This document shows positions 1,861 through 50,500 of a stretch of 64,000 bases of DNA, one piece after another. The notes beneath the pieces are model-generated. The model was not told where the DNA came from and did no database searches. It saw only the letters and a list, made by a program, of their open reading frames with translations. Position numbers and translations under genes: made by a program. Within the stretch, counting starts at the first letter, position 1, and each line of letters opens with the position of its first letter. Origin of the DNA: Anas platyrhynchos (taxonomy: Eukaryota > Chordata > Aves > Anseriformes > Anatidae). Where the stretch lies: assembly GCF_047663525.1 (NCBI RefSeq), contig NC_092611.1, forward strand, positions 9,957,001-10,021,000. The letters run 5' to 3'.

Positions 1861-4800
1861 TCAGAGGCTCCACAGCATGGCAACAGCCTTGCAGATACCG
1901 ACGTCGTTATAGTTAAAGTAGCAGAGGCCAGCGAAGGTCACGGCCGACAGAATGTACAGACCTGTATTGGCCACTTTAATGGGTGTCTCTCCATGGACGT
2001 AGTCAGTTATAACCTGTCCAAGACCCCTAAAGAATGAGAGAAACGAGCTGAAATCAGGAGAGCATGCCTCATGAAAATCCACCGGCAGGCACTCTACTGT
2101 GACTGCCCTGCTAAAATGGCTCAAACTGTCTGTTTTTCCACCACCTATCACCAACCGTTATTACCAAAGTCTAGTTCCCACTCAGAAAGCAGATGCATGT
2201 ACTGAAAATACATAAAAACATTTCACATGTTCTATTAAAATACAGATATACTGGCTTGGAGATTTCTTAACAATGCTGAGGAAAGAAGGTGCTGAGCACA
2301 GCTCTTCCAGAGATCTGCCTCCAGCTAACCTGATTTTGAAGGACTGAAGAAAACAGACCAAAGGAAATGCATTTCTTGCCCAAACTCTGTGACTGACCCT
2401 TGTCACAAATGCACACAAGACTCAAGGATGTGTATTGAGATTAGAAAACAGTTGGAGATTAGCATACTCTGTTTTTTTTCCTACATCTGTCAGACTTTTC
2501 TTGAATTCTGTGGTCCAGATTTAAACCATTCAGCAACAGCAAGACAGAGGGCTCTATCATCCTGCTGGGGTAGTTCTCTTCCCAGAAGCAGTTGTATTTA
2601 CTTTCTGTGATGACAGATGGCAACTTGGTGAAAACGAGAAGCACACTTACTGCAACAATCTTCTTCCTAGAATTTTGCCTTGGTCTAACGTGAAGCTGAA
2701 GGACCTGTCTCCCATAAGTTAAGCCATGCTGGTGGCCTGGCAAGTTTCAAAGTCCTGCAGCAGATTCTACCCCAAGAGAACAGAGCTCAGCTTCACTCTG
2801 ATGGGACTCTGATACCTTTGTGATGTTGAGTGTGAGACAAGGGGTGCGAGTAAGTCCTAGATACACAAAAGAGGAGCAGAAAGTGGAAGCAATCTGAAAG
2901 GCAACTAATTCTTGAATTATTATAGCTACTGCCTGTCACTGAATGGTGGAGTAAGGTCAGAAGTGCAAGCGGCATGCACCTGCACCATGAACTGCTCTAG
3001 GAACAGACAAGTAAGGCAGTAAGGCATACCCAACGTGGGATTCACAGGTTGTCCTTCAGCTGGAGCGCTGATAAAGGATCTTCAACAGATCTTCACTTTA
3101 CACAGCAAAATAAACTTGAGTCATGCCAAGAATTGTCAGCAAAATTACTGTGTGACTTGACCACAGACTAATTAAACCACACAAAGCCCTTGAGAGAAAA
3201 CACAAGTGGCCCTGAGAACATGAAAGGGAATTAGTGGGAAGCAGCTGGCCTGTGGTAGACACACGACCTAGTTCAAAACAGAGCAGCTTTGCTGGGCAGA
3301 GAAATATTTATTACACACCAGTGAAAACAGCAAAAGATGGCCCCAGGTGTCTTGACAAAGTGTAATAATATTTTAGAATAGTATTTCTGATAGCAAAACA
3401 CAGCAAAAGGTGAAAGAAATCCCCTCAAAAATATATGCAGAATTCCTCTGTAGTTTCTGATCAGCTATTAGAGGGATTATCTGATCTGTTAGGCAATCAA
3501 CTAAACTTTTAAGGCAAGCAAATCATCTTTTTTCTTTAAAAGATATTCTAGCATTGAATACATATGAAAGCTCTAGAGGAGGACTTTTCTGTGTAGGATT
3601 TAGATTCTTGCATCCACACTTTGTAAAAATAAGAGTTTGGTACTGGAACAACTTCTCAGCTTAAAAAGGGAACAACACAAGCAAGATGTGGGGGAGGATG
3701 TGGATTCTCTCTGCTGAAAGCTATGGCAGAGCTGCACAGAAGCAGCAAAATATTTTTCTCATGGGGAAATCCCCACGCCGCTTACAAAGAAATGATTCCC
3801 AGTATGAAAAGTCCTGATGCTGGGTAAGAGACATTAACTGACGAATCAAAGCTGTGTGCATCAACACCGAGTGTCACTCCAGGAACTCATTTCAACACAG
3901 TGGGCTGCAACAGCCTGTCCCACTGCCTGGAACTGAAATGCACGTGCCCAGCAAGCAGAGAAGTGTTCCAAAGCATGCAGGATTTGCTTTACCTGCTTTA
4001 TATTTGAAAGAGCTCTGTCAACCAAGTTCAAGGACAGACGCGTTTCTGATGAATTCTGTGCTAGATTGGAGAGCTTTGGGAAGGAGCTGCCAGAAAGTGC
4101 AAGAATCCCTGCTGCAACTCCCTAAGGGCAGAACTGAGATTTAAGAAACCTCTCACCCCTAAGTCCATTTAAATTGCCTTATCGCTGCTGCAAGGAACTG
4201 CAGAGCAGCAGCACCTCAAGAATGTAACTGCTGCCAGTTGGGCCACCCACACAGCTGGATCCACTCCTAGATTCATAAAGGACAGAAAGCCAGGCCTACC
4301 CACATGAAAGACCACAGCAGAACTGTGCTTCAGAACGTAAGCAAGCATCTGTTTTGCAAGAATCAAGAAAATGATTAAGGTCAAAACATCTCCACTGCAA
4401 TGTTTGTTCTGAACTCTTCTTTAGGCAGAATCTCATCACCATTAAGATGTACAAAGCAACCCATGGCTCAGAACCTTAGAAGTTGTTTTATGCAGGTCTG
4501 CCCTGTTCCTATTCCCTCTGTTCATAAAACATCACTTCTTTTAGAAGACAAAACCATCCAAGATTCTACACAGCCAGTACCAAGGCAGTTCTCCAAGGCA
4601 GGACTTTGGGTTTCATATCATACAGGAGAACACTACAGAATGTTTAGTTTACAGATTCCTTAGTACCAACATGTGTCCTGCCTTCTGACATACAGAACAG
4701 TGTGACAGAGAAACACCAAGGTACAGCAAGTCTTGTTAAAGGTCACTGACAGTTCACTGACAGTTTTGAGGAACCTACTGAGCTTACCAGTGGCCGTGGA

Positions 4801-6464
4801 GAGTGAGGGCTGCAGCCAGGGAGTAGTCCACGGCCGGTCCAGGGCATAGGTAGGCTGCGGGGAGGAGGCCCAGCAAGAGGACACTGACAGCTCGCTCGCT
4901 TGTCCAGTGCAAGGACGCAGCCTTGGAGCCGCCTGCAAGGTGAAGGACTGTGAGTGCAACGTTCCTGCTCTGGGTGCTGCAGCCTCACACACACCTCCTC
5001 CCATCGATGCCACCCAAGGACCTGTTTTTTTCCAACCTGACTACTACATTTCCGTCTGAGCAAAATCAAGAAGTCTCTGAATAACTGGAAGAGAAAATAC
5101 ATCTATTTTACAGTGCCTGGAGGGTTTATTTTAAATACTCTTCTTTGCTGCCACTGAGAAAAAGAAGCGTCTTTTAATTCAAAGAAGCAGAAGCTCAACG
5201 GGTGAGGTCAAAACAAACACAAGTCCTCACAACCCAAGTCACAGAGTAAATTTCTGGGACCATCACACTGGTGTGTGACCCAGAAGCAATCTGGAAGCCA
5301 GAGGACTTCAGCCCTCCACTGATGCTCGGTTGGGTACAATGTGGACCGTGTAACAGGGGACTCCAGACACGGACATGCTGGGTAGGAAGCTCTGTGACTA
5401 ACTCTTACCTTCTAGAAGCGCACAGATACTGTTAAGGAGGGGGAAAAAAATCAGTTTTAGAGGAAGCCAAACACCTAATTTCACAAGCGATACCCTGAAC
5501 CACAATTATCAGCACCAGCCCAAGCAAAAAACATCCAGAATTGACAATGCGTAATTACCTGCAGAAATCAATACCCCCAGGGTGCTTGCCTAACACTTCC
5601 ATATTCAAACCAGCAGCCAAATGCTTTTGCTCCTTTTTGCAAATAGAAACAAACCAGACAGCAAAGCAACGGGATAAAGAAAGCAAAGAAACCTGCAGTA
5701 AAACACGGGAAGGATCTCTGCTGTGGACTCATAACCGTCCCTAGGGTATACCATGGCCAAGGAGGCTTCGCGGCATGTGTATGAAGTGTGTTTAGCCTGA
5801 AAGCCCGAGCGAGAAGGAAGCCGTCCGGTCGTGGTGAAGGCTCCGCTCTCCCCAACGTTTCTTCCCACTTCCAAGCCGCGTTGTGAGGGCTGCGCAGCGT
5901 CCTCAGCCTCACCGCGCTTCTCACAGCGGGGCCAGGCCCAACACTCACCTTCACTTCTGCTGCTGCTGTTACACCTTCCACCCTCCTTACCCACCGCCAG
6001 GTCACCGTGCGGGCGGCGGCACGAAGCGTTTAGCACGACAACACCCGTGTGAACGCCTCAGGGAGCGGGTTCGCTGCTCCCACACCCCCCGCAGCGCCCT
6101 GCGGCCGCTCAGCACGGCTGGGTGCGGGGCACCCCCCACGGACAGACAGACCCACGGACAGCCGCAGGGGGCCGTGCCGGGACGTACCGTGACCCTGCTG
6201 CCCGTGGCTCCCCCGGATCGGAGCGGCTGAGGCGAGTGCCGGCAGCACCCCCAGGCGGCGGCGGAGGAGGAGGAGGCTCCTGGTGAGGAGAGCTGCGGAG
6301 AGACGAGTGGGGGGCGGTCAGGGCCGGGGACAAAGAGACAAGAAGACGAAAAGGGACAAACAGACGAAGGGACACGGGCAGGCTCGGGCCGTGCCGCACC
6401 ACTCACCCGTCCGCGCTCCGCGGCCCCCCCCCAGCCCGGCCCGCATCAGCGCCGCCGCCGCCAT
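1861..6464 (-). CDS. SDHD: SDHD, succinate dehydrogenase cytochrome b small subunit (complex II, mitochondrial)
   Basis: Four coding exons: 6407-6464, 6188-6292, 4788-4932 and 1861-2026. They sum to 157 codons plus stop. All introns are GT-AG, the phases join correctly, and exon 3 has the same 145-base length as human exon 3. The product is one of two membrane anchors of complex II, binding heme b and ubiquinone in the inner mitochondrial membrane. Residues 1-55 form an Ala/Leu/Arg-rich mitochondrial presequence. The conserved core begins [14 protein letters not shown] at 56. The heme-ligand His of the LHGHWGLGQ segment is about residue 100, and the quinone-site Asp-Tyr of TDYVHG is about 111-112. 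Three hydrophobic segments follow the presequence, and the protein ends [14 protein letters not shown]. The start is the first ATG after the CpG-rich leader; a second in-frame ATG is codon 7. The presequence differs strongly from mammals, as is usual for transit peptides. Confidence 0.95.
2027..4787 (-). other. SDHD: SDHD intron 3
   Basis: A 2.76-kb intron between the last two coding exons, with donor gtaagc after 4788 and acceptor ctttag before 2026. It contains only unsupported short reading frames. I see no transposon, RNA gene or conserved exon in it. Confidence 0.7.
4933..6187 (-). other. SDHD: SDHD intron 2
   Basis: A 1.26-kb intron with donor gtacgt and acceptor ccttgcag. The part nearest exon 2 (5850-6187) continues the promoter CpG-rich region. 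It contains exon-like decoys (gtgagt at about 5947, gtaagg at about 5995, gtaaga at about 5407). None joins in the right phase to the clear exon 3, so I did not use them. An unannotated 5' alternative transcript could use one. Confidence 0.6.
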
Positions 6465-6720
6465 CTTGCGTCTCCCCCCTCAAGGGCACCGGAACGGGAA
6501 GGAGCGGGCGGGGAGCGGCCTCCGCTGCTCCGCCACCTCCCTCAGCGGCCGTGAAGGGCTCCCTGGGGCCCGGCCCGGCTCGGCGGGGGCTCCGGCTTCG
6601 TGTGGTGCCCTGCCCGGCCCTGCTGAGGTGCCTCCAGACCCCCCTCGCCCCGTCCCGTCTCGCCCCCAGCCCCCTCCCGCTCTCCCAGGGTTCTGTTCCG
6701 CCCCCCGGCTCTCTGTCAAA
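5850..6720. promoter_or_regulatory. SDHD: CpG-rich promoter region of SDHD
   Basis: A GC-rich block with many CpG dinucleotides surrounds SDHD exons 1 and 2. Transcription probably starts just to the right of the ATG at 6464. No TATA box is evident. The block ends close to the inferred 3' end of NKAPD1, so the two same-strand genes are separated by only a few hundred bases. In mammals this promoter is shared head-to-head with TIMM8B; no plus-strand TIMM8B exon is visible here. Confidence 0.65.
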
Positions 6721-6750
6721 GCAAGCACCGAGCCCTCAAACAGCTCCGGA

Positions 6751-6756
6751 TTTATT
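6751..6756 (-). promoter_or_regulatory. NKAPD1: Candidate NKAPD1 polyadenylation signal
   Basis: AATAAA on the minus strand, about 790 bases after the NKAPD1 stop and only about 290 bases before the SDHD start codon. I saw no better hexamer in between. Its use is inferred. Confidence 0.5.
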
Positions 6757-7546
6757 TGTCTCGTCAGAAGAAGGCCTGGCTGCTGCCCGGCGCCGAGATC
6801 CGGCCTCTGCCCTTCTCCGTGAATAGCACACGGCGCCTGCCGAGGGCTCTCTGCTGGCACAAAGGGGTGCAGCAGCCCTCTGGAGAGGAGGAAGGCAAGG
6901 CAATCTCCAGCCTGTGCCAGGGTTTGGAAAGACGTCTCAAACAAGCAAACGCACGAGTTTCTTGCACCACACCTCCTGCCAGAATGAGAGCATTCCCTCA
7001 TGCTCCCATCCGCATCCAGTTGAGCCTGTGCCACAAAGCTCTGCTGCTGTGGGAGTGGGAAAGACACAGTTACCAGAGGGTAAATCCAGTGATACTTCCT
7101 TTGTTAGCAGCTCAGCTGATGGACTTCGTGTCTCTTATTGCAAGTTTTGGTCATTAATTGAGTAACCCAAAAGAAACAAACTGTTAAAACTTAATTAAAA
7201 CAAATAAAAATGGTGCAAACATGCCTGCCCCCCCCCCTGCAGACAGCCTGTCACGTTTCTGTGCATCGAAGATCAACCTGGTCACATCAAGCAAATCCGA
7301 AGCCGGCAGGACAAGCCAACCTGCGAGGCAGGAAACTGCTCCCCCACCTTCCTGAGCACCGAGTCAAGGAGAAGCAAGGGGCAGCTCCTGCTGGCTGCCA
7401 AGGCTCAGTTCCCCCCGGGGGCTGGGAGGAAGGATAAACCACAGTGCTGAAAAATGCTGAAGGACGGGGCAGTGCTGAAAGGAAAATACCTGCCTCTGTC
7501 CTCTACCGTATTGCCTGAGCCACAGCCTGGACTCAGCAATTCCTCG
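6757..7546 (-). other. NKAPD1: Probable NKAPD1 3' UTR
   Basis: Sequence between the NKAPD1 stop and the AATAAA at 6751. It holds a run of ten C at about 7230-7239 (plus strand) and no recognisable coding region on either strand. This is where TIMM8B would be expected from mammalian gene order. The twin CX3C cysteines of a small TIM protein are not seen in any frame. Confidence 0.5.
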
Positions 7547-10500
7547 TCAGTCCTCATCTGAGCTATCCTCAGATTTATCATCTGCAGCCACCTTCCAGTT
7601 CTTCCTCTTGCTCCTCTTCTCTGGTACTTCGGCGTGTCTCTCCGACACAGAATTGTGACGTTTCTTTCTCTTTCTGGGGGGCCGTTTCTCTTTTTTCTCC
7701 TCAGATTCACTGTCCTCAGAGCTGCTGGTGGTTGAGCTGCTTGCATGGGAAAAGTCACTTTCCTGCCCAGAAGACGAGGTAGGTTCCCTGACAGGCACTT
7801 TCCTGGTCTTTTTCTTGCGCTTGTGTTTCCCCTTGCGAGTGCCTGAAGTCTCCTCATCGGAGCATTCGCTCTCCTGGGAAGAATCTGACGACGTCCTCCC
7901 CTGCTCCTTTTTCTTTTTCTTTCGCTTTTTGTGCGAACGCTTTTTTTGCTTCTTCTTGTGCGATTTCTTTGTTCTTTTCCGTTTGTGCGACCCGTGGGCA
8001 GTTTGCTTTCTCAAATGAGATTTTTTCTTCCCATTAACAGCGTTCTGTTCCTCTCCTTCTTGCTGGTCACTGCAAGAACAAAGGATCACCAGAAGAAACC
8101 AGATGGGCAGGCACATAGCAGCTGAGCCTTTTCTATATCCAAGTTGTTAGCAAATCCATTGACTCAACTGAACAGTGCAGGGGAGTGGATGTAGTGGCTG
8201 CATTTTTGTTTCAAATGCTTGTTAACAGCTTGGACCACACCTTACTAATACCCCTGATCAAGGTATTCAAGGCAGAGCCAATGACAACATGTACTGAAAG
8301 CCATCAAGTGACAAAAAAAAAATAATTTACAGCAGGCTATTTCAAATCTGTAAGCCTGACAAATTTTGTACTTGATGACTGCTAGGTGCAACTTAACATA
8401 ATTAACTCTAAGATCTCATTTTACAGCTAAGTCTCCACTTTCCAGGGGTCTGGGAGGGTTGATTTTCTCCAAATACGGACTAACACTGAAACCAGACACA
8501 CTACAATGCAGTGGGGAATCCGGAGCTGGTATTTGACAGTGTGTCTACTGACCTGATTTGGATTCAGCCTACTTCTGTTTCCCTGCTGGCTCAGGCAGAC
8601 CCTCCACAATTCACAGCATTTCAGTAACTCAAGCTCAAGCTGAATGTCTAATTACTACAGGAGACAATCCTCCCCTAAGACTCAGACAGGAGGGAACCAC
8701 ATTAATGGACTAGTTGTTTTCAGTGGGTATCCGTAACTAAACAGTGTTGCTTTGCCATTAAAGGTAGATCTAAAACCAAAACTTACAATAATTCAGTTTG
8801 TAAAATTCCCTGCATACCCTGACAAGACTCAGGATACATCTCTGAATCTGTTTGCTTTACCTGTCTGTATCAAATTCTTCAGGGTATAGCTCTTTATAGC
8901 CACTGTGACCCCATCTGTAAGAAGCAGAAACACGTATTAAAAGCAGAGAAGTGTTTAAGGGGAAAAAAGGTTCTGAAAAGACAGAGCCACAGAATGAGTT
9001 TAGACACAAGAAAGGAAATCAGAACCTTCCCAACAAGGAAAGAAGGAAAGAAAAAACAACTGATTTGATTAGTACTATTTAAAGACATTTGATGTTTTCA
9101 GGCTCCTTCCTACTTCTAATAATATAAGTTCCATTTCTTTAAAAGAACTCTGGGGAGCACTGTGTTGCACTTCTTTAGACTTTTATCAGTTCCTTGGGCA
9201 AAGAAATAAATACCAAGCTTAGGTGGTAAACTTAGGGCTTAGCTTTTGTGGCTTATTGTGACTTAGGAACTCTGTAGACAAATTCAAATCAGATACTCTG
9301 TGACAGTGCAAATGTTTGTGCCTCTTACTTACTCATTCTCAAAATGAGATGAAATGCTATTTTATAGGAGTACATATCGACAGGAGTAACACACTAATAT
9401 TTTGGTACAGGACTCCAGAAAGGTGCTCCAATTATAGTTACAATCAGAGAACATTAAAACACCCCACAGACCTGTCAGGCATGTTGGCTTCACATTCATA
9501 GAGCTTTTTATTCCAGGACCGTGCTCTAAGCAAATCATCTTCGACTGGGTCAAGAAACTGTGAGTTCTTTGTTTTCCAGTCGGCCCTGTGACCCTCGTCA
9601 TCGAAGCCATCACTGCGCATCCGACTGCTGCAGAAAGAGAACAGTTGTCCTTCAGCTGTCAGTTCTGATGGAGAAACTTTCTGAGCAAGGGGTTAGTCCA
9701 GCGAGGGGAGCAAAAATCCAGCAAGTCTTGAGTGTCCATCTATGCAAGAAGACCAACTATCATTTTAACGGACAGTCACCATTAAGAGCTCTCACAAACC
9801 AGTTCACGAGCTAACGCTGGTTTTCACACTTACTACTGCCTACAGTGCATGGCAAAATTCTCAGCCAACACACTGAATTAGAGGAAGGGGTTACCTTGCC
9901 GGCCACAAAAATGCAGTTCTCCTCCTTCAGAATACTCTGCTGGAGCAGACTAGCAACATGCAGTGAGACATAGCTGCTAGTAGAAGTCGGCAAATGAGGA
10001 ACTTGGGAAGCAGAACTGACTTAACTGGAATTAGCTTGATTAGGTATCAGTACTAAAACTGAAAATCCACCAACAAGCACCAACAGCTCTAAGCCATCTC
10101 ACATGTCTGCGGCTTGCTCTGTGCCACACTTCCTGAGCGAAGCAGCACCTGTGCACTTGGCACGAGTCTGCAAGGTGTTCTTCCCCGAGATACCAAAACC
10201 ACTTCCTGCAGCATTTACATTTCTGCCATGTTGTCCCAGCATTTAAAAAAAGGAAACAAATCTCCACTTGCAATCCCCACCAAACCAGCTTGTTTTCGCA
10301 TAATACTGCTTAAAAGGTGGACAATACCAATGTTGTACCAGAGCAGGACCCCATACTACAACAACTTTGGTTACTGATAACTTGAAGGCCAACACATTTA
10401 GACTTTCCTCACACCATTCTGACCTACAACTCCAGCACTTCTTATTCCAGCTCTTTCACAGAGCCCGGCCTACTTCCGGTTGTATTTTGAAGACTATACA

Positions 10501-11189
10501 CGTAGATGCAAAGATAAATAGTCAGATTTAAGTGCAGGTCTGACTTCCTTCCAGGGACTCCATGCCTTATGTGGTATTCCTACATTATTAGGGGATGGCC
10601 AGCACAAAATACTCCTACAGCATTATAAAGCAAAAGGGTTCAGTGACTGTGCCAGGACAGTTATGTCCTCCACACAAGTGGTGCCCACCTGGAGGTGTCC
10701 GACAGCATCCTGCTTCGCCTCCTCCAGTATGTCTCTTCTGTCTGCTTCTCCCACTCCCTGATTTTCCACATTTCTGTCTCTTCCTGGATCTGAAAGCCAC
10801 AAAAAGGAAAAAAACGTAAGCGTGTTACAGCAGCCCCCAGCTCAGCGGGGGAGCGAACCCTCCACGAACACGTGAAATTCACCGCTCGGCCGGGCCAGCA
10901 GGAGCTCAGGTCGCGGTTTGCTGAGGACCACGGAGCTCCTACACCGCGCCGGGCACGCTCCCAGAAGCCGAAACTTCTTCGCTGCCACCCAAAGCACACT
11001 GCGGGAACGATAAGGCACCCACCCGGCTGCTTTACAGCCTCGCTGCTCACAAAAACCCGGCGGCGCCTTCCCCCCGCCCGACCCCCGATAACTCCGGCGG
11101 GGCTCGGGGCCGGGCCCTACCTTGTTGTGCGCTCCCGTGTGCCTCATGAGGTTCCGCAGCAGCACCTTCCCCACCGGCACCCGAGCCAT
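7547..11189 (-). CDS. NKAPD1: NKAPD1 (C11orf57-type), NKAP domain-containing basic/Ser-rich protein
   Basis: Five coding exons: 11121-11189, 10689-10789, 9472-9627, 8861-8914 and 7547-8069, giving 300 codons plus stop with all phases consistent. The N-terminus MARVPVGKVLLRN, the middle motif [22 protein letters not shown] and the segment ELYPEEFDTD match the vertebrate family. The last exon encodes a tail of dense Lys/Arg stretches (about residues 135-190) alternating with Ser/Glu/Asp tracts and ends in an acidic SSDED. This resembles RS-like or NKAP-like nuclear proteins, but the molecular function is not established. Exon 3 starts at a NAGNAG acceptor (9624 or 9627), so isoforms differing by one serine are possible. 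The exon 3 donor is the weak gtctgt. It shares a head-to-head promoter with PIH1D2 and lies just upstream of SDHD on the same strand. Confidence 0.93.
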
Positions 11190-11332
11190 CCTCCGGCCCC
11201 CTCCGCTCCCCTCCGGCCCCAGCAGGGCCCCGGCCCCCGGACGCGGCCAGGCCCAGCGCCTCCCCCGGGCGGCTGCGGCGGCGGAACGGGGCCGGGCCCT
11301 GTCGCTACGGCAACGGGGCCCTGCCGGAGGAA
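11190..11332. promoter_or_regulatory. Bidirectional CpG promoter of NKAPD1 and PIH1D2
   Basis: Only about 143 bases separate the divergent start codons of NKAPD1 (minus) and the presumed PIH1D2 start (plus). The DNA is very GC-rich, rich in CpG and lacks a TATA box. CpG density stays high from about 10850 to 11620. The same head-to-head arrangement exists in mammals. Confidence 0.75.
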
Positions 11333-11629
11333 ATGGCGGAGGGCGAGCCCCTGCCTTGCTCGAGTCTCCTGAGGAGGGTTGGCGGAGCCCCGGCTCTGCC
11401 TGAGGGCTCAGCCCCGCGGGGCCGCCCCGCTCTTCGTTAACGTGTGCGGCTGCGGCGCGGTGCCGGCCCCCGGAGGCCCCCGGGCGCCCGTGCCCGTCAG
11501 GGCCGGGCCGCTGGAAAGGGCGGCCGGAGATGGGGGTGCGGGAATAAAGCGGGGGCTGAGGGAGCTGGGGGGCGGCATGGGGGGAAGCGGGGGGAGGAGG
11601 ATGAGGGGAGACCCCGCTGCGGCCTTCAA

Positions 11630-12300
11630 GGGGGTTGTGAAAGGATGGAGGGCTCAGCTCAGTCAGGTAGGGACAGGATGAGGGGGAACGGTCTTAAACT
11701 AAAAGAGGGGAGGTTTATACTAGGTTACTAGGAGGAAATTCTTCATCCAGAATGTGGTGAGGCACTGGAACAGGCTGCCAAGAAGCTGTGGATGCCCCAT
11801 CTGGGGTTGTTTAATCTGAAGAGGAGGCTCAGGGCAGACCTTACTGCTCTCTGCAACTCCCTGAAAGGAAGGGGTGGGGAGCTGGGGTCTGCCTCTTCTC
11901 ACCGGTAACCAGCGGTAGGACCAGAGGGAATGGGCTCAGGTTGTGCCAGGGGAGGTTCAGGTTGGGAACTAGGAGACATTTCTGCTCAGAAAGAGCAGTC
12001 GGGCATTGCGACGGGTTGCCCAGGGAGGTGGTGGAGTCACCGTCCCTGGGGGTGCTCAAGGAGAGGTTGGACGTGGTGCTTGGGGACACGGCTCAGTGGT
12101 GACATTGGTGGTAGGGGGTGGTTGGACCAGGTGATCTTGGAGGGCTCTTCCAACCTTAATGATTCTGTGATCCCTGGAGGTGATCAAGGCCAGGTTGGAC
12201 GAGGCCCTGAGCAACCTGATCTAGTGGGTGGCATCCCAGCCCATGGCAGGGGGTTGGAACTGGATGATCTTTGAGGTCCCTTCCAACCAGACCCATCCTG
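11630..12300 (+). mobile_element. CR1 LINE fragment, outer copy interrupted by a younger CR1
   Basis: Two halves (about 11630-11801 and 12172-12300) read as one CR1 3' region in plus orientation. The left half has the ttaaactaaaagaggggagg and gtggtgaggcactggaacag motifs and ends at gatgccccat. The right half resumes with ccctggaggtgatcaaggcc and runs to ggtcccttccaacc. The element is 5'-truncated and non-coding and fills most of PIH1D2 intron 1. The boundaries are approximate. Confidence 0.8.
11802..12171 (+). mobile_element. CR1 LINE fragment, inner copy inserted in another CR1
   Basis: Begins with a CR1-like segment (gtttaatctgaagaggaggctcaggg), passes through the familiar caggttgtgccaggggaggtt region and ends in the CR1 3' terminal motif (atgattctgtgat). 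It splits the surrounding CR1 between gatgccccat and ccctggagg, so it arrived later. It has no open reading frame. Confidence 0.75.
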
Positions 12301-12605: not shown

Positions 12606-14075
12606 AGATCTTTACAGTATTACAGATATTGCATATAACCCAGATGTTCTTCAGAGGGGAGAAGAAAACCCAGAAAAAATGAAACATTTGATCCACATGA
12701 CACTTAAATTCGTTGAGGAACGATGCAACCTTATTCTTTCACCTTCATACACTGTTGGCCATTCAAGCTGAAAGGCAGCCTGGAAAGGAGGCAGCAACAT
12801 CTGCAAGGATGGCAGATGCCAACACCCTGTCTCAATCAGAACACAAAGAAGGGTATGTAGACAGCTGCTGTCAGTTTTCTTTGCAGGCCTAACAGACTTT
12901 GCCAACAAGCTCCCTCAACGCCAATTCTTGCCTTAAGCGTAAACCAAGCACTTAAAGAAACAAAAGTTTCTTTTGCTCTGAGATGAGTAGAAGAGGTTGC
13001 TGCTGTTACCAGTGCTCTGAAAACAGCAACTTCTAACAGCTTGGCAGTGAAAACAAATCACGAGGGAAGGAGAATCTGCAAATTACAGTCTTCAGCTGAC
13101 AAACTTGCTAATTACAAAGCTAAAATTTTAGTAATAAGTTTGTCAAGCAGTGTTAACAGTTCTTAGGAACTGACTGTTATGTGAAAAACTTTGTTTTCTT
13201 GAAAGAACTGACACTTGATCAGTTGCTACACAGAATAGAAGCTAAAGACCACAGCAGTGCTCCTATCCTGCTGAAAAAAGGAAGTATTGCACAGCCTAAA
13301 GTGCCTCTGATAGAGGAAATTAGCAGTACAGAACTGCCAGAAGAGCTGAGCACCCCTGCCTATGAAATGAGCACTGTGAATGATGCAAACAAGAAGCCAT
13401 TACAAATTGAACTGAAAGTTAAATTGCCCAAGGTTAGCTCCGTTTCTGAGTGTGATCTGAGAATTTCAAAGGTAAGGCAACAGAAAGAATAACCTTTTGT
13501 TTTCTATCTGGTATCAAATTCCTAGAAATACTTGCTGCTAATTCATTGTCAAATAATCAATCACATATTTTAATATTGTTTTAGGATGACATAATCATTA
13601 ATGTTCCTGAAAAATACAAATTACAACTAGATCTGCCAGAATTGGTGGATGAGGAAACGGCTACAGCAACATTTAACAAAGGAAAAGGGGTATTGTTCGT
13701 CACAGTGTCAGTTGCAAAGCCCGTGTGTTAAAGAATTCAAAGTCCTGTCCAGTTCCTGTTCACAGATGACAGAACTAACCAAAAGCCCAGAATGAGCATC
13801 CTGACTTGCAGCTGGCGATGAGTTAATTGACCTCATCTTCAAAGGTGAATACCTCAAAATGCCTTTAGAAAGTGCATGTAGAAAAGGAAGCCAGGAGGAA
13901 AATTAGCATCACCAAACTTAGGAAAAAGTAGACTGTAAATACTCAAGGAATACTCAAATGTATTAACAGCTGTCCTAATGAACCATAGATGCATACATGC
14001 CTTACTGTCTCATGAATTCTGCTTTAAGATACATGGCAATAACAGTTGTATTGTTTTTCTGTGTTTTTATTGTTA

Positions 14076-14081
14076 AATAAA
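14076..14081 (+). promoter_or_regulatory. PIH1D2: PIH1D2 polyadenylation signal
   Basis: AATAAA on the plus strand about 345 bases after the PIH1D2 stop, in an AT-rich context with T-rich DNA around it. This gives a typical short 3' UTR (13732 to about 14100). Confidence 0.7.
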
Positions 14082-16203: not shown

Positions 16204-22934
<6,731 letters not shown>

Positions 22935-47500: not shown

Positions 47501-50500
47501 AGAACTGGGTGTTCAACAGGTTGAATCATATATGTTAACTGCCAGGGGCAAGTACCTTTTGCTGATGTCTGATGCATGCGGATCTTTTTTGACGCCACGA
47601 ACTGTAAGACTTTCTCCACATTTTCCCTCATCTCCTGCTGGCTGGTAGGGTTGACCTGGACGCCATTCAACTTCTCACCAGCTAAAGAAGTGAAAAGAAA
47701 TTTATTAGAGGGGATAGTGCTTAGTGCTGCCTCAGGAACTGCTGTAGCTGTGGGGGTCAACTTTATGTCTTGTCAGACTGTGAGGAGACATGCATGATTT
47801 CTTGTCCTGCTTAAGATACTCAATACTAGGAATAACTATATTGGAGGCAGACCTTGCAGTATATTGTCTGAAAAGGGGCATTTTTATGCATACTTCATTA
47901 TTTTATGATTACTCCTGAGTTACTGTGACCTTCTGTGTGGAAATATTAGACTCTTTTGCTGAGAAACAGACAGCATTATCCCCCAGAGCTGCTGCTGCTC
48001 TCTCTTCTTATAAATATCAGTATCTCAGCAAGCAGCTCACTCTTCCATAAATGCCATGCACTGACACCATTCCTTGACATGGCAAATCCTTTCATGACTC
48101 CATTCCAGCCTTGTGGGGGTTAACACGGTCTCTGATCAGTTCTGGCATCTCTGCCACAGGTTACCTTAGAGACCACATACACAGTTCAAAAGGTCTGCAA
48201 TGTGGCTGTGTTGTAACTGACTGCTAACACATATGGACCCAATAGAATTGCCTTTATGATTTGCTTTATGATTGTTTTCTTTTAACATGAGCCCTCCCCC
48301 AAGCTCTGACGCTCATTAACGTCCGCCAGTCTGCCTGACAGATGTCGGAGCCAAGGCCAGCTTTTTACACAAGATCTAAAACTGCACGATGAAAAACAGT
48401 GCCATATGGCATTACTGACCTACAATCTCAATAAGTGAGGCAAGGATGACTCCATCTCTGAGATCTTGTCTCAAGTCCTGGACTGGCTTTATTGTTGGCT
48501 TCTTCTTCAGCTGGGAATTCACCCAGGCCACATATGCCTGTAGCTGTTGCTGAAAATGGAAAAGAAAACAAAATGTTTGCACATCATTGCCTTTTCAGGG
48601 GGAAGTTGCATAGCTCTTACTTTACTCTCTCCCTTTGCAGATCTCACTGTCTTTTGCCTTTGAAAACAAAGGAATGGTCTCATCCCTGAAGCCTGCTGAG
48701 CACGGACTTGACATCACCGCACACTGTGGCGCAGCTCACTCTGTGCCAGGACAGGACGAGCAGGCAGGCAGCAACAACACTGCCAGAACAGGGTCACTCA
48801 CAGCATTTAGGGTCCTAAATGCTGTTTAGGACCTGTGTTTTTTTCCCCTCCAGATATCTAGAAAGCAGAAAACCGGTGCTACTTCCTATTAAACTGCAAT
48901 CTATCACAAGAAACAACTGGGACAGATTTCATGGAAAGGAGCCTGCCTCCTTTGCACACCCCGCATGGCTCATTTGAAATAACCCATGGAGTAGGAAGGG
49001 TCACCCTGTTGTACAGCCCCTTTCTTCCATTGCCTAGGAGCTGCATGGGCATTTCTATTGCACCGCTCTCCATTTCTGTACAGGGCCCTGTACCCCTCAA
49101 AATGACTTGTCTCAGCACCTGCAGGACCTAATATCAAAGAGCATCATCCTTGCAGCATGTCGTAGCCCCACAGAGCTGTGAGTGCTGCCACAAGGGGAAG
49201 AAATTCAGGATGCTGTTCAGTGTTGGGACCTGTCTGGCACATGCAGCTAAACAGAAATGAGCAGATTCACAACTTCTTCCTTTTCACCCCACCCCCTAGC
49301 ACCCCCATGGCTAGCAGGAGCCTTGGTGACACTGAAATCCCTTTGGGCAGGGCTGGAGTGGCACATGGAAGGTAAACAAACTGATCCATTTATGGGATTA
49401 CCTGCTGTTTCACTAAGCTTCCCGATTTCTGCCCATGCAGCAGGTTTTAAGACCTCATTCCATATTATCTCAGCAATGCCAGAGTTTATGCTTTTACGGC
49501 CCATCAAAGTCACAATCTGATCACAGCTTCACTCGTAATTATCCTGGCATGGGAAATCCAGCATTAACCATGCCATGGTTCGGTCTGCTGGTTCAGAAAG
49601 ATGCCTGCACAAACGTTCAGCCCATCCTGCTTACTCAGCGGAGCTGGAAAGCAGGACACAGGACACGAGCTTGGGGTCCTGCCTGATGGCTTTTGAAAAA
49701 AAAAAAAAAAAAAAAAAGAGGAAAAATAAAATAGCAGAAGTGGCAGAGCTTGCTGGAGCAGACTTAGCCTGACACGTGGATGGGGTCTGCGCACTCTCCT
49801 TTGCCTGTAATGGTAACAATACATGTTAGTTTTGCCTGCCCTCTTTCAGAGGTTTTTATTTGCTGCTTAAGGCAACTGGGGACTGCAAAGAGTCAACAAG
49901 TCATGGCTTCTCTCTCCTGTACAAGCTCATGATGCTGTGCTTATTTCCAGAACTGCACTGATAACTCCTGCCAAACTGCAAGAAGCCCCTCTGCTGCTCA
50001 CAGCTCAAATGTACCTGATGGTGGGGGCACTGAGATCCAGCCTCACAGCAGCCCAATTCCACAGCCAGAGGCCACAAGCCTTCAATTACCCATATTCAGT
50101 AAAGCTTTAATTAATTTAAGCAAATTCCAGTAGAAATAAAAAGGTGGGTTTGCTTACAGTAACACAGCACCATTACAAAAACACCTAGATTCAATAATAA
50201 TGATGTATTAAATAAGGCTGCATGAAAATTGCATCCAAAGTCTATGTAATTTAGGGAAATAATCCCTCAAACTGTTAACTATCCTGCTGTCATTTTTCAA
50301 ATTATTTTATGAATTTCTGAACCAGGCTGTTATAGTGTAGTAATTCCACAAGGGCACAGTCCCTTCCAGCCTACAGAAAGCTCAGGATTTTATATGAGTC
50401 TGTATGGTTCTTCCATTCAGGCACCTCCCTTTTCACTCAAAGGGAAAAAAAAACAACTCACTCACTAAGCAGTTGGCTTTCTTTTTATCTTCTCTCAGCA

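Follow-up and report, generated by a model that had tools for sequence, protein, structure and literature searches.

The bird PIH1D2 gene in the 64,000-nt stretch of DNA analysed here (the window) contains two frame-breaking lesions, one in exon 1 and one in exon 2, in an unprocessed, syntenic gene that retains its introns. We favour, with some reservation, the reading that PIH1D2 has become a young unitary pseudogene in this bird lineage, or else that the sequence represents a null haplotype. A continuous PIH1D2 frame from ATG to stop is absent, being interrupted by a stop at 11438 and by the shift in exon 2, and neither the frame of the ATG nor the original frame of exon 2 gives a whole protein from this sequence. 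Both frame breaks and the intact remainder of the gene are present in the sequence, and we infer that the bird itself carries both lesions and that they originated as deletions. There would have been two separate deletions, each of them frame-destroying: one of ~92 nt in exon 1, which took away the beginning of the PIH domain, and another, of a single base in exon 2, falling within that domain.

The locus contains an ortholog of PIH1D2

To place the gene, we used tblastn with human proteins. The order SDHD, NKAPD1, PIH1D2, DLAT and DIXDC1 is present in the window, with PIH1D2 on the plus strand, flanked by NKAPD1 and DLAT, both on the minus strand, and with SDHD and DIXDC1 farther out. We take the human neighbourhood to be SDHD, TIMM8B, NKAPD1, PIH1D2, DLAT and DIXDC1. 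On the plus strand, exon 1 spans 11333–11535 (donor GT at 11536), exon 2 spans 12608–12852 (donor GT at 12853), exon 3 spans 13206–13471, and exon 4 spans 13585–13731 and ends with the stop codon TAA at 13729–13731. All exons are bordered by GT-AG, the donor of exon 1 (GTGCGG) being weak by eye, and a poly(A) signal, AATAAA, lies at 14076–14081.

Exon 3 (ELTLDQ...DLRISK), in which the CS domain begins, and exon 4, which continues it, are intact and together show 47% identity to the human protein (E 5e-26, tblastn). The Pfam profile PIH1_CS (PF18201) scores 51.4 bits in the read-through PIH1D2 protein, against a cut-off of 23.3; exon 4 alone exceeds this cut-off (26.6 bits), and exon 3 alone falls below it (16.1 bits). 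The profile PIH1 (PF08190) scores 35.7 bits against a cut-off of 24 for the pieces of exons 1 and 2 joined across the broken frame, with profile positions below 31 unmatched. A search of PDB with the read-through protein returned zero matches up to E 1, and a search for relatives of the exon 3 protein confirmed 0 of 24 pattern matches in viral_contigs and 0 of 207 in genome_contigs.

The gene thus resembles vertebrate PIH1D2, the component of the SPAG1-PIH1D2-RUVBL1/2 complex (R2SP), in its neighbours, in its PIH1_CS domain, in its partial match to PIH1, and in its 44–51% identity to human PIH1D2 in exon 3, exon 4 and exon 2 before the shift. Unlike vertebrate PIH1D2, it carries the two frame breaks, and its PIH domain lacks the initial portion. 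The gene is the PIH1D2 ortholog and not a retrocopy; a processed retrocopy or stray duplicate is ruled out by the retained introns and the kept neighbours.

Exon 2 carries a one-base frameshift

The first part of exon 2 (12608–12761, plus strand) is read in the original frame (DLYSITDIAYNPDVL...SPSYTVG). It matches human residues 101–150 (E 3e-9, tblastn) and positions 97–138 of the PIH1 profile, at 17.4 bits, which alone is below the Pfam cut-off. The codons across the shift are TAC at 12748, ACT, GTT, GGC, CAT, TCA, AGC and TGA, so that the original frame ends SPSYTVGHSS. The earlier note placed the end of this frame, the one that gives ITDIAYNPDVL, at TGA 12769–12771 after a one-base phase shift, and direct reading shows these coordinates to be exact.

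The second part of exon 2 (12762–12852, plus strand) is read in the +1 frame (FKLKGSLERRQQHLQGWQMPTPCLNQNTKK). Starting from TTC at 12762, this frame extends the homology by 30 gapless residues, 10 of which (33%) are identical to human PIH1D2, as expected from the claim that it takes up the family homology at once. Specifically, it scores 54 against the human stretch of equal length, while four neighbouring offsets score −17 to −21. Among 127,820 placements covering both strands of the window, only the frame at 12762 reaches 54, the next best scoring 25. Furthermore, the PIH1 match, which scores 30.0 bits and ends at profile position 138 without the second frame, scores 35.7 bits and extends to position 155 with it, although the 29-residue second piece by itself matches no Pfam family. 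The +1 frame stays open as far as the exon 2 donor, and a split codon (G/AA at 13206) carries it in phase into exon 3, where it reads ELTLDQ, in agreement with the earlier note. Its count of 11 nt where 12 are expected also holds, as human PIH1D2 has four residues between SY and F. A frameshift- and intron-aware protein-to-DNA alignment finds a single shift in PIH1D2, at 12758, in all five penalty settings used. The site is 51% GC and has no homopolymer longer than 3 around it. The exon 2 frameshift in this sequence is confirmed, well beyond chance.

Exon 1 carries a larger lesion

Exon 1 contains a second break, larger than that in exon 2 and not described in the earlier note. On the plus strand, the exon starts with ATG followed by MAEGEPLPCSSLLRRVG up to the gap site (11333–11384), and its remainder (11385–11535) is read in another frame (EPRLCLRAQPRGAAPLFVNVCGCGAVPAPGGPRAPVPVRAGPLERAAGDG). 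The ATG frame translates as MAEGEPLPCSSLLRRVGGAPALPEGSAPRGRPALR and meets its first stop, after 35 codons, at 11438–11440, while the family homology restarts in the different frame at 11385 (EPRLCLRAQ...PLFVNVCGCGAVPAPGGPRAPVPV). From the ATG to the EPRLCL codon there are 52 nt, compared with 144 in human PIH1D2, a deficit of ~92 nt that is not a multiple of three and corresponds to human residues of about 17–48. The remainder of exon 1 matches human residues 49–94 (E 5e-4, tblastn) and PIH1 positions 31–59, at 14.7 bits, which alone is below the cut-off of 24. Whereas the human protein matches the PIH1 profile from position 10, the match here begins only at position 31, so the beginning of the PIH domain is absent.

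The short piece after the ATG is taken to be the old N-terminus by its position and its loose likeness to human PIH1D2; tblastn does not detect it, and the frameshift-aware alignment begins only at human residue 49. The missing stretch was not found elsewhere in the window, where the best match for human residues 1–55 reaches 20.8 bits. A possible alternative acceptor immediately upstream of EPRLCL is poor by eye. A short word, TGGCGGAG, occurs at 11334 and 11380, on either side of the exon 1 junction, which proves nothing in such GC-rich DNA.

A zebrafish pih1d2 genome-editing target printed in PMC6008050 translates to YRSFIQ, which fits human YEKFIQ in the lost part. By our own reading of the target letters, this fit suggests that the lost part of exon 1 is probably old in vertebrates.

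The two lesions bear on whether ribosomal or editing recoding mends the PIH1D2 frame during expression. The immediate resumption of homology in the next frame in exon 2 is the sole point for recoding. There would be two sites to mend, one of them lacking about 92 nt, and the PIH family is not known for recoding; we consider this explanation extremely improbable.

Neighbouring genes contain no confirmed frameshift

As a control, we applied the frameshift- and intron-aware alignment at its five penalty settings to five genes, PIH1D2 and its neighbours DLAT, NKAPD1, SDHD and DIXDC1. The four control genes contribute 1,739 aligned codons at one setting, with the first part of SDHD aligned doubtfully, exon 1 of DLAT aligned weakly, and TIMM8B not found. 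No frameshift appears in 19 of the 20 gene-and-setting runs with control genes. The exception, a DLAT shift at 19638 at the first setting, is gone at the other four and is rejected: the DLAT exons join in frame there through a canonical phase-0 splice (CCA/GTAAGG ... TTAAG/GTGGCA), and the call arises because a proline run is two codons longer than in human DLAT. A plain tblastn control is too blunt for this purpose, the PIH1D2 shift appearing as a 31-residue query gap and the largest gap in the neighbours being 17 residues, in DIXDC1.

PIH1D2 accounts for 257 of the 1,996 aligned codons. A single evenly falling error would hit PIH1D2 with a chance of ~0.13, so the exon 2 shift alone is unremarkable; the chance that two evenly falling errors both hit PIH1D2 is ~0.017.

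Gene decay and assembly error as explanations

The earlier note left open whether the gene is decaying or the assembly lacks a base, and both readings survive. Decay gains from the second, independent lesion in exon 1, from the absence of a confirmed frameshift in the four neighbours, and from the lack of a homopolymer longer than 3 around the exon 2 site. It is not thereby proven, given the GC richness of exon 1 and the fact that no nonsense codon has accumulated: the 266 PIH1D2 codons, read in their own frames, contain 0 nonsense codons, and the splice sites, stop codon, poly(A) signal and exons 3 and 4 look intact. With an assumed transition weight of 4, 0.1 neutral substitutions per site would give 2.35 expected nonsense codons, and zero would be seen with probability 0.05 at 0.127. 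The loss, if real, is therefore recent, with a neutral divergence since loss below about 0.13. Only a recent loss, or the wrong assembly of an intact gene, is compatible with the intact remainder.

Wrong assembly is the main rival of the pseudogene or null-haplotype reading. It holds that the bird PIH1D2 is intact and that the assembly dropped one base of exon 2 and a GC-rich stretch of exon 1; we judge it possible, though doubtful. Assemblies tend to fail in GC-rich DNA, and exon 1 is 77% GC and lies within a CpG-rich stretch beside NKAPD1, so errors need not fall evenly. The lack of nonsense codons and the intact splice sites fit this explanation, and the failure to find TIMM8B, which should lie between SDHD and NKAPD1, could likewise reflect dropped GC-rich sequence. 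However, two independent errors would be needed in one small gene while the 1,739 neighbouring codons are without a confirmed shift, the exon 2 site is 51% GC and is free of long homopolymers, and the window contains zero N.

Like known unitary pseudogenes, the bird PIH1D2 has kept its introns, neighbours and poly(A) signal and has acquired two frame-breaking lesions. It differs from them in having no nonsense codons yet and in that its disabled state is putative. Against decay, PIH1D2 is listed as a chicken gene in PMC12046372. The titles and abstract openings of the matches listed for the PIH1D2 literature contain no report of its loss in birds.

A third explanation is a reduced working gene, in which a CS-domain protein without the PIH domain is made from a downstream start or through an unseen alternative first exon. 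Exons 3 and 4 are open and conserved, with a CS domain above the Pfam cut-off, and in-frame ATGs at 12816 and 13367 lie past the shift in exon 2. Against this, the ATG at 12816 is in a weak start context (TGGCAGATGCC; by the usual start-context rule), the frame of the ATG at 11333 stops inside exon 1, and such a gene would lose the PIH domain. We consider a reduced gene improbable.

Possible consequences of the lesions

In other animals, PIH1D2 is a helper in building the motors of sperm tails and cilia. The testes of birds are warm and abdominal. According to PMC5974087, SPAG1 and RUVBL1/2 are the binding partners of human PIH1D2 in R2SP, a complex enriched in testis, the effect of R2SP is stronger at 32 than at 37 degrees, and the authors link this to the cool mammalian testis. 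According to PMC6008050, sperm of zebrafish pih1d2 nulls swim at normal velocity with a lower motile share, pih1d2 overlaps in function with ktu, the double null being worse, and the authors regard Pih1d2 as a genuine dynein assembly factor. Loss of PIH1D2 is therefore bearable in principle, and, given that status as an assembly factor, it may carry a cost.

If the gene is a pseudogene or null haplotype, translation starting at the ATG would end after 35 codons, and the transcripts, with their early stops, would probably be removed by nonsense-mediated decay. At most, a CS-domain fragment would be made, starting at the ATG at 12816 or 13367, and cilia and sperm would depend on the remaining PIH proteins, PIH1D1, DNAAF2 and DNAAF6. 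The need for R2SP could have lapsed in birds, because R2SP is stronger at 32 degrees and bird testes are warm. That a lineage of birds dropped PIH1D2 together with the R2SP chaperone, leaving dynein assembly to other PIH proteins, seems to us rather improbable.

If both lesions are real, the bird is a natural PIH1D2 knock-out and would allow tests of whether SPAG1 still needs PIH1D2 and whether R2SP has its role in the cool testis of mammals. Otherwise, the locus usefully warns that a first exon rich in GC can be in error.

Other features of the window

TIMM8B, expected at 2026–11190 from the human gene order, has no tblastn match scoring above 24 bits in the whole window, and the sole match in a scan of the window for its paired CX3C motif, at 47728, is unlike TIMM8B. 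The gene may be lost, may have moved, or may have dropped out of GC-rich sequence. In PMC12046372, a chicken gene list names SDHD and PIH1D2, and TIMM8B and NKAPD1 are absent from it; as NKAPD1 is also absent, the list does not decide the fate of TIMM8B.

Scanning for bacterial promoters and terminators found nothing, which has no bearing on a bird gene. The stretch of PIH1D2 intron 1 at about 11640–12290 resembles the 3′ end of what we take to be a CR1 element. The start codons of NKAPD1 and PIH1D2 are divergent (11187–11335) and lie 143 nt apart in DNA that is 84% GC, and the gap between the two genes looks like a very short, putative bidirectional promoter.

For SDHD, exons 1 and 2 (4930–6500) were not found by tblastn with the human sequence; a possible exon 1 lies near 6415–6465 on the minus strand. 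The window probably comes from a bird other than chicken: compared with chain 1yq3_D, presumably chicken SDHD, exon 3 has 2 differences in 47 residues and exon 4 has 6 in 54 (8 of 101 in total).
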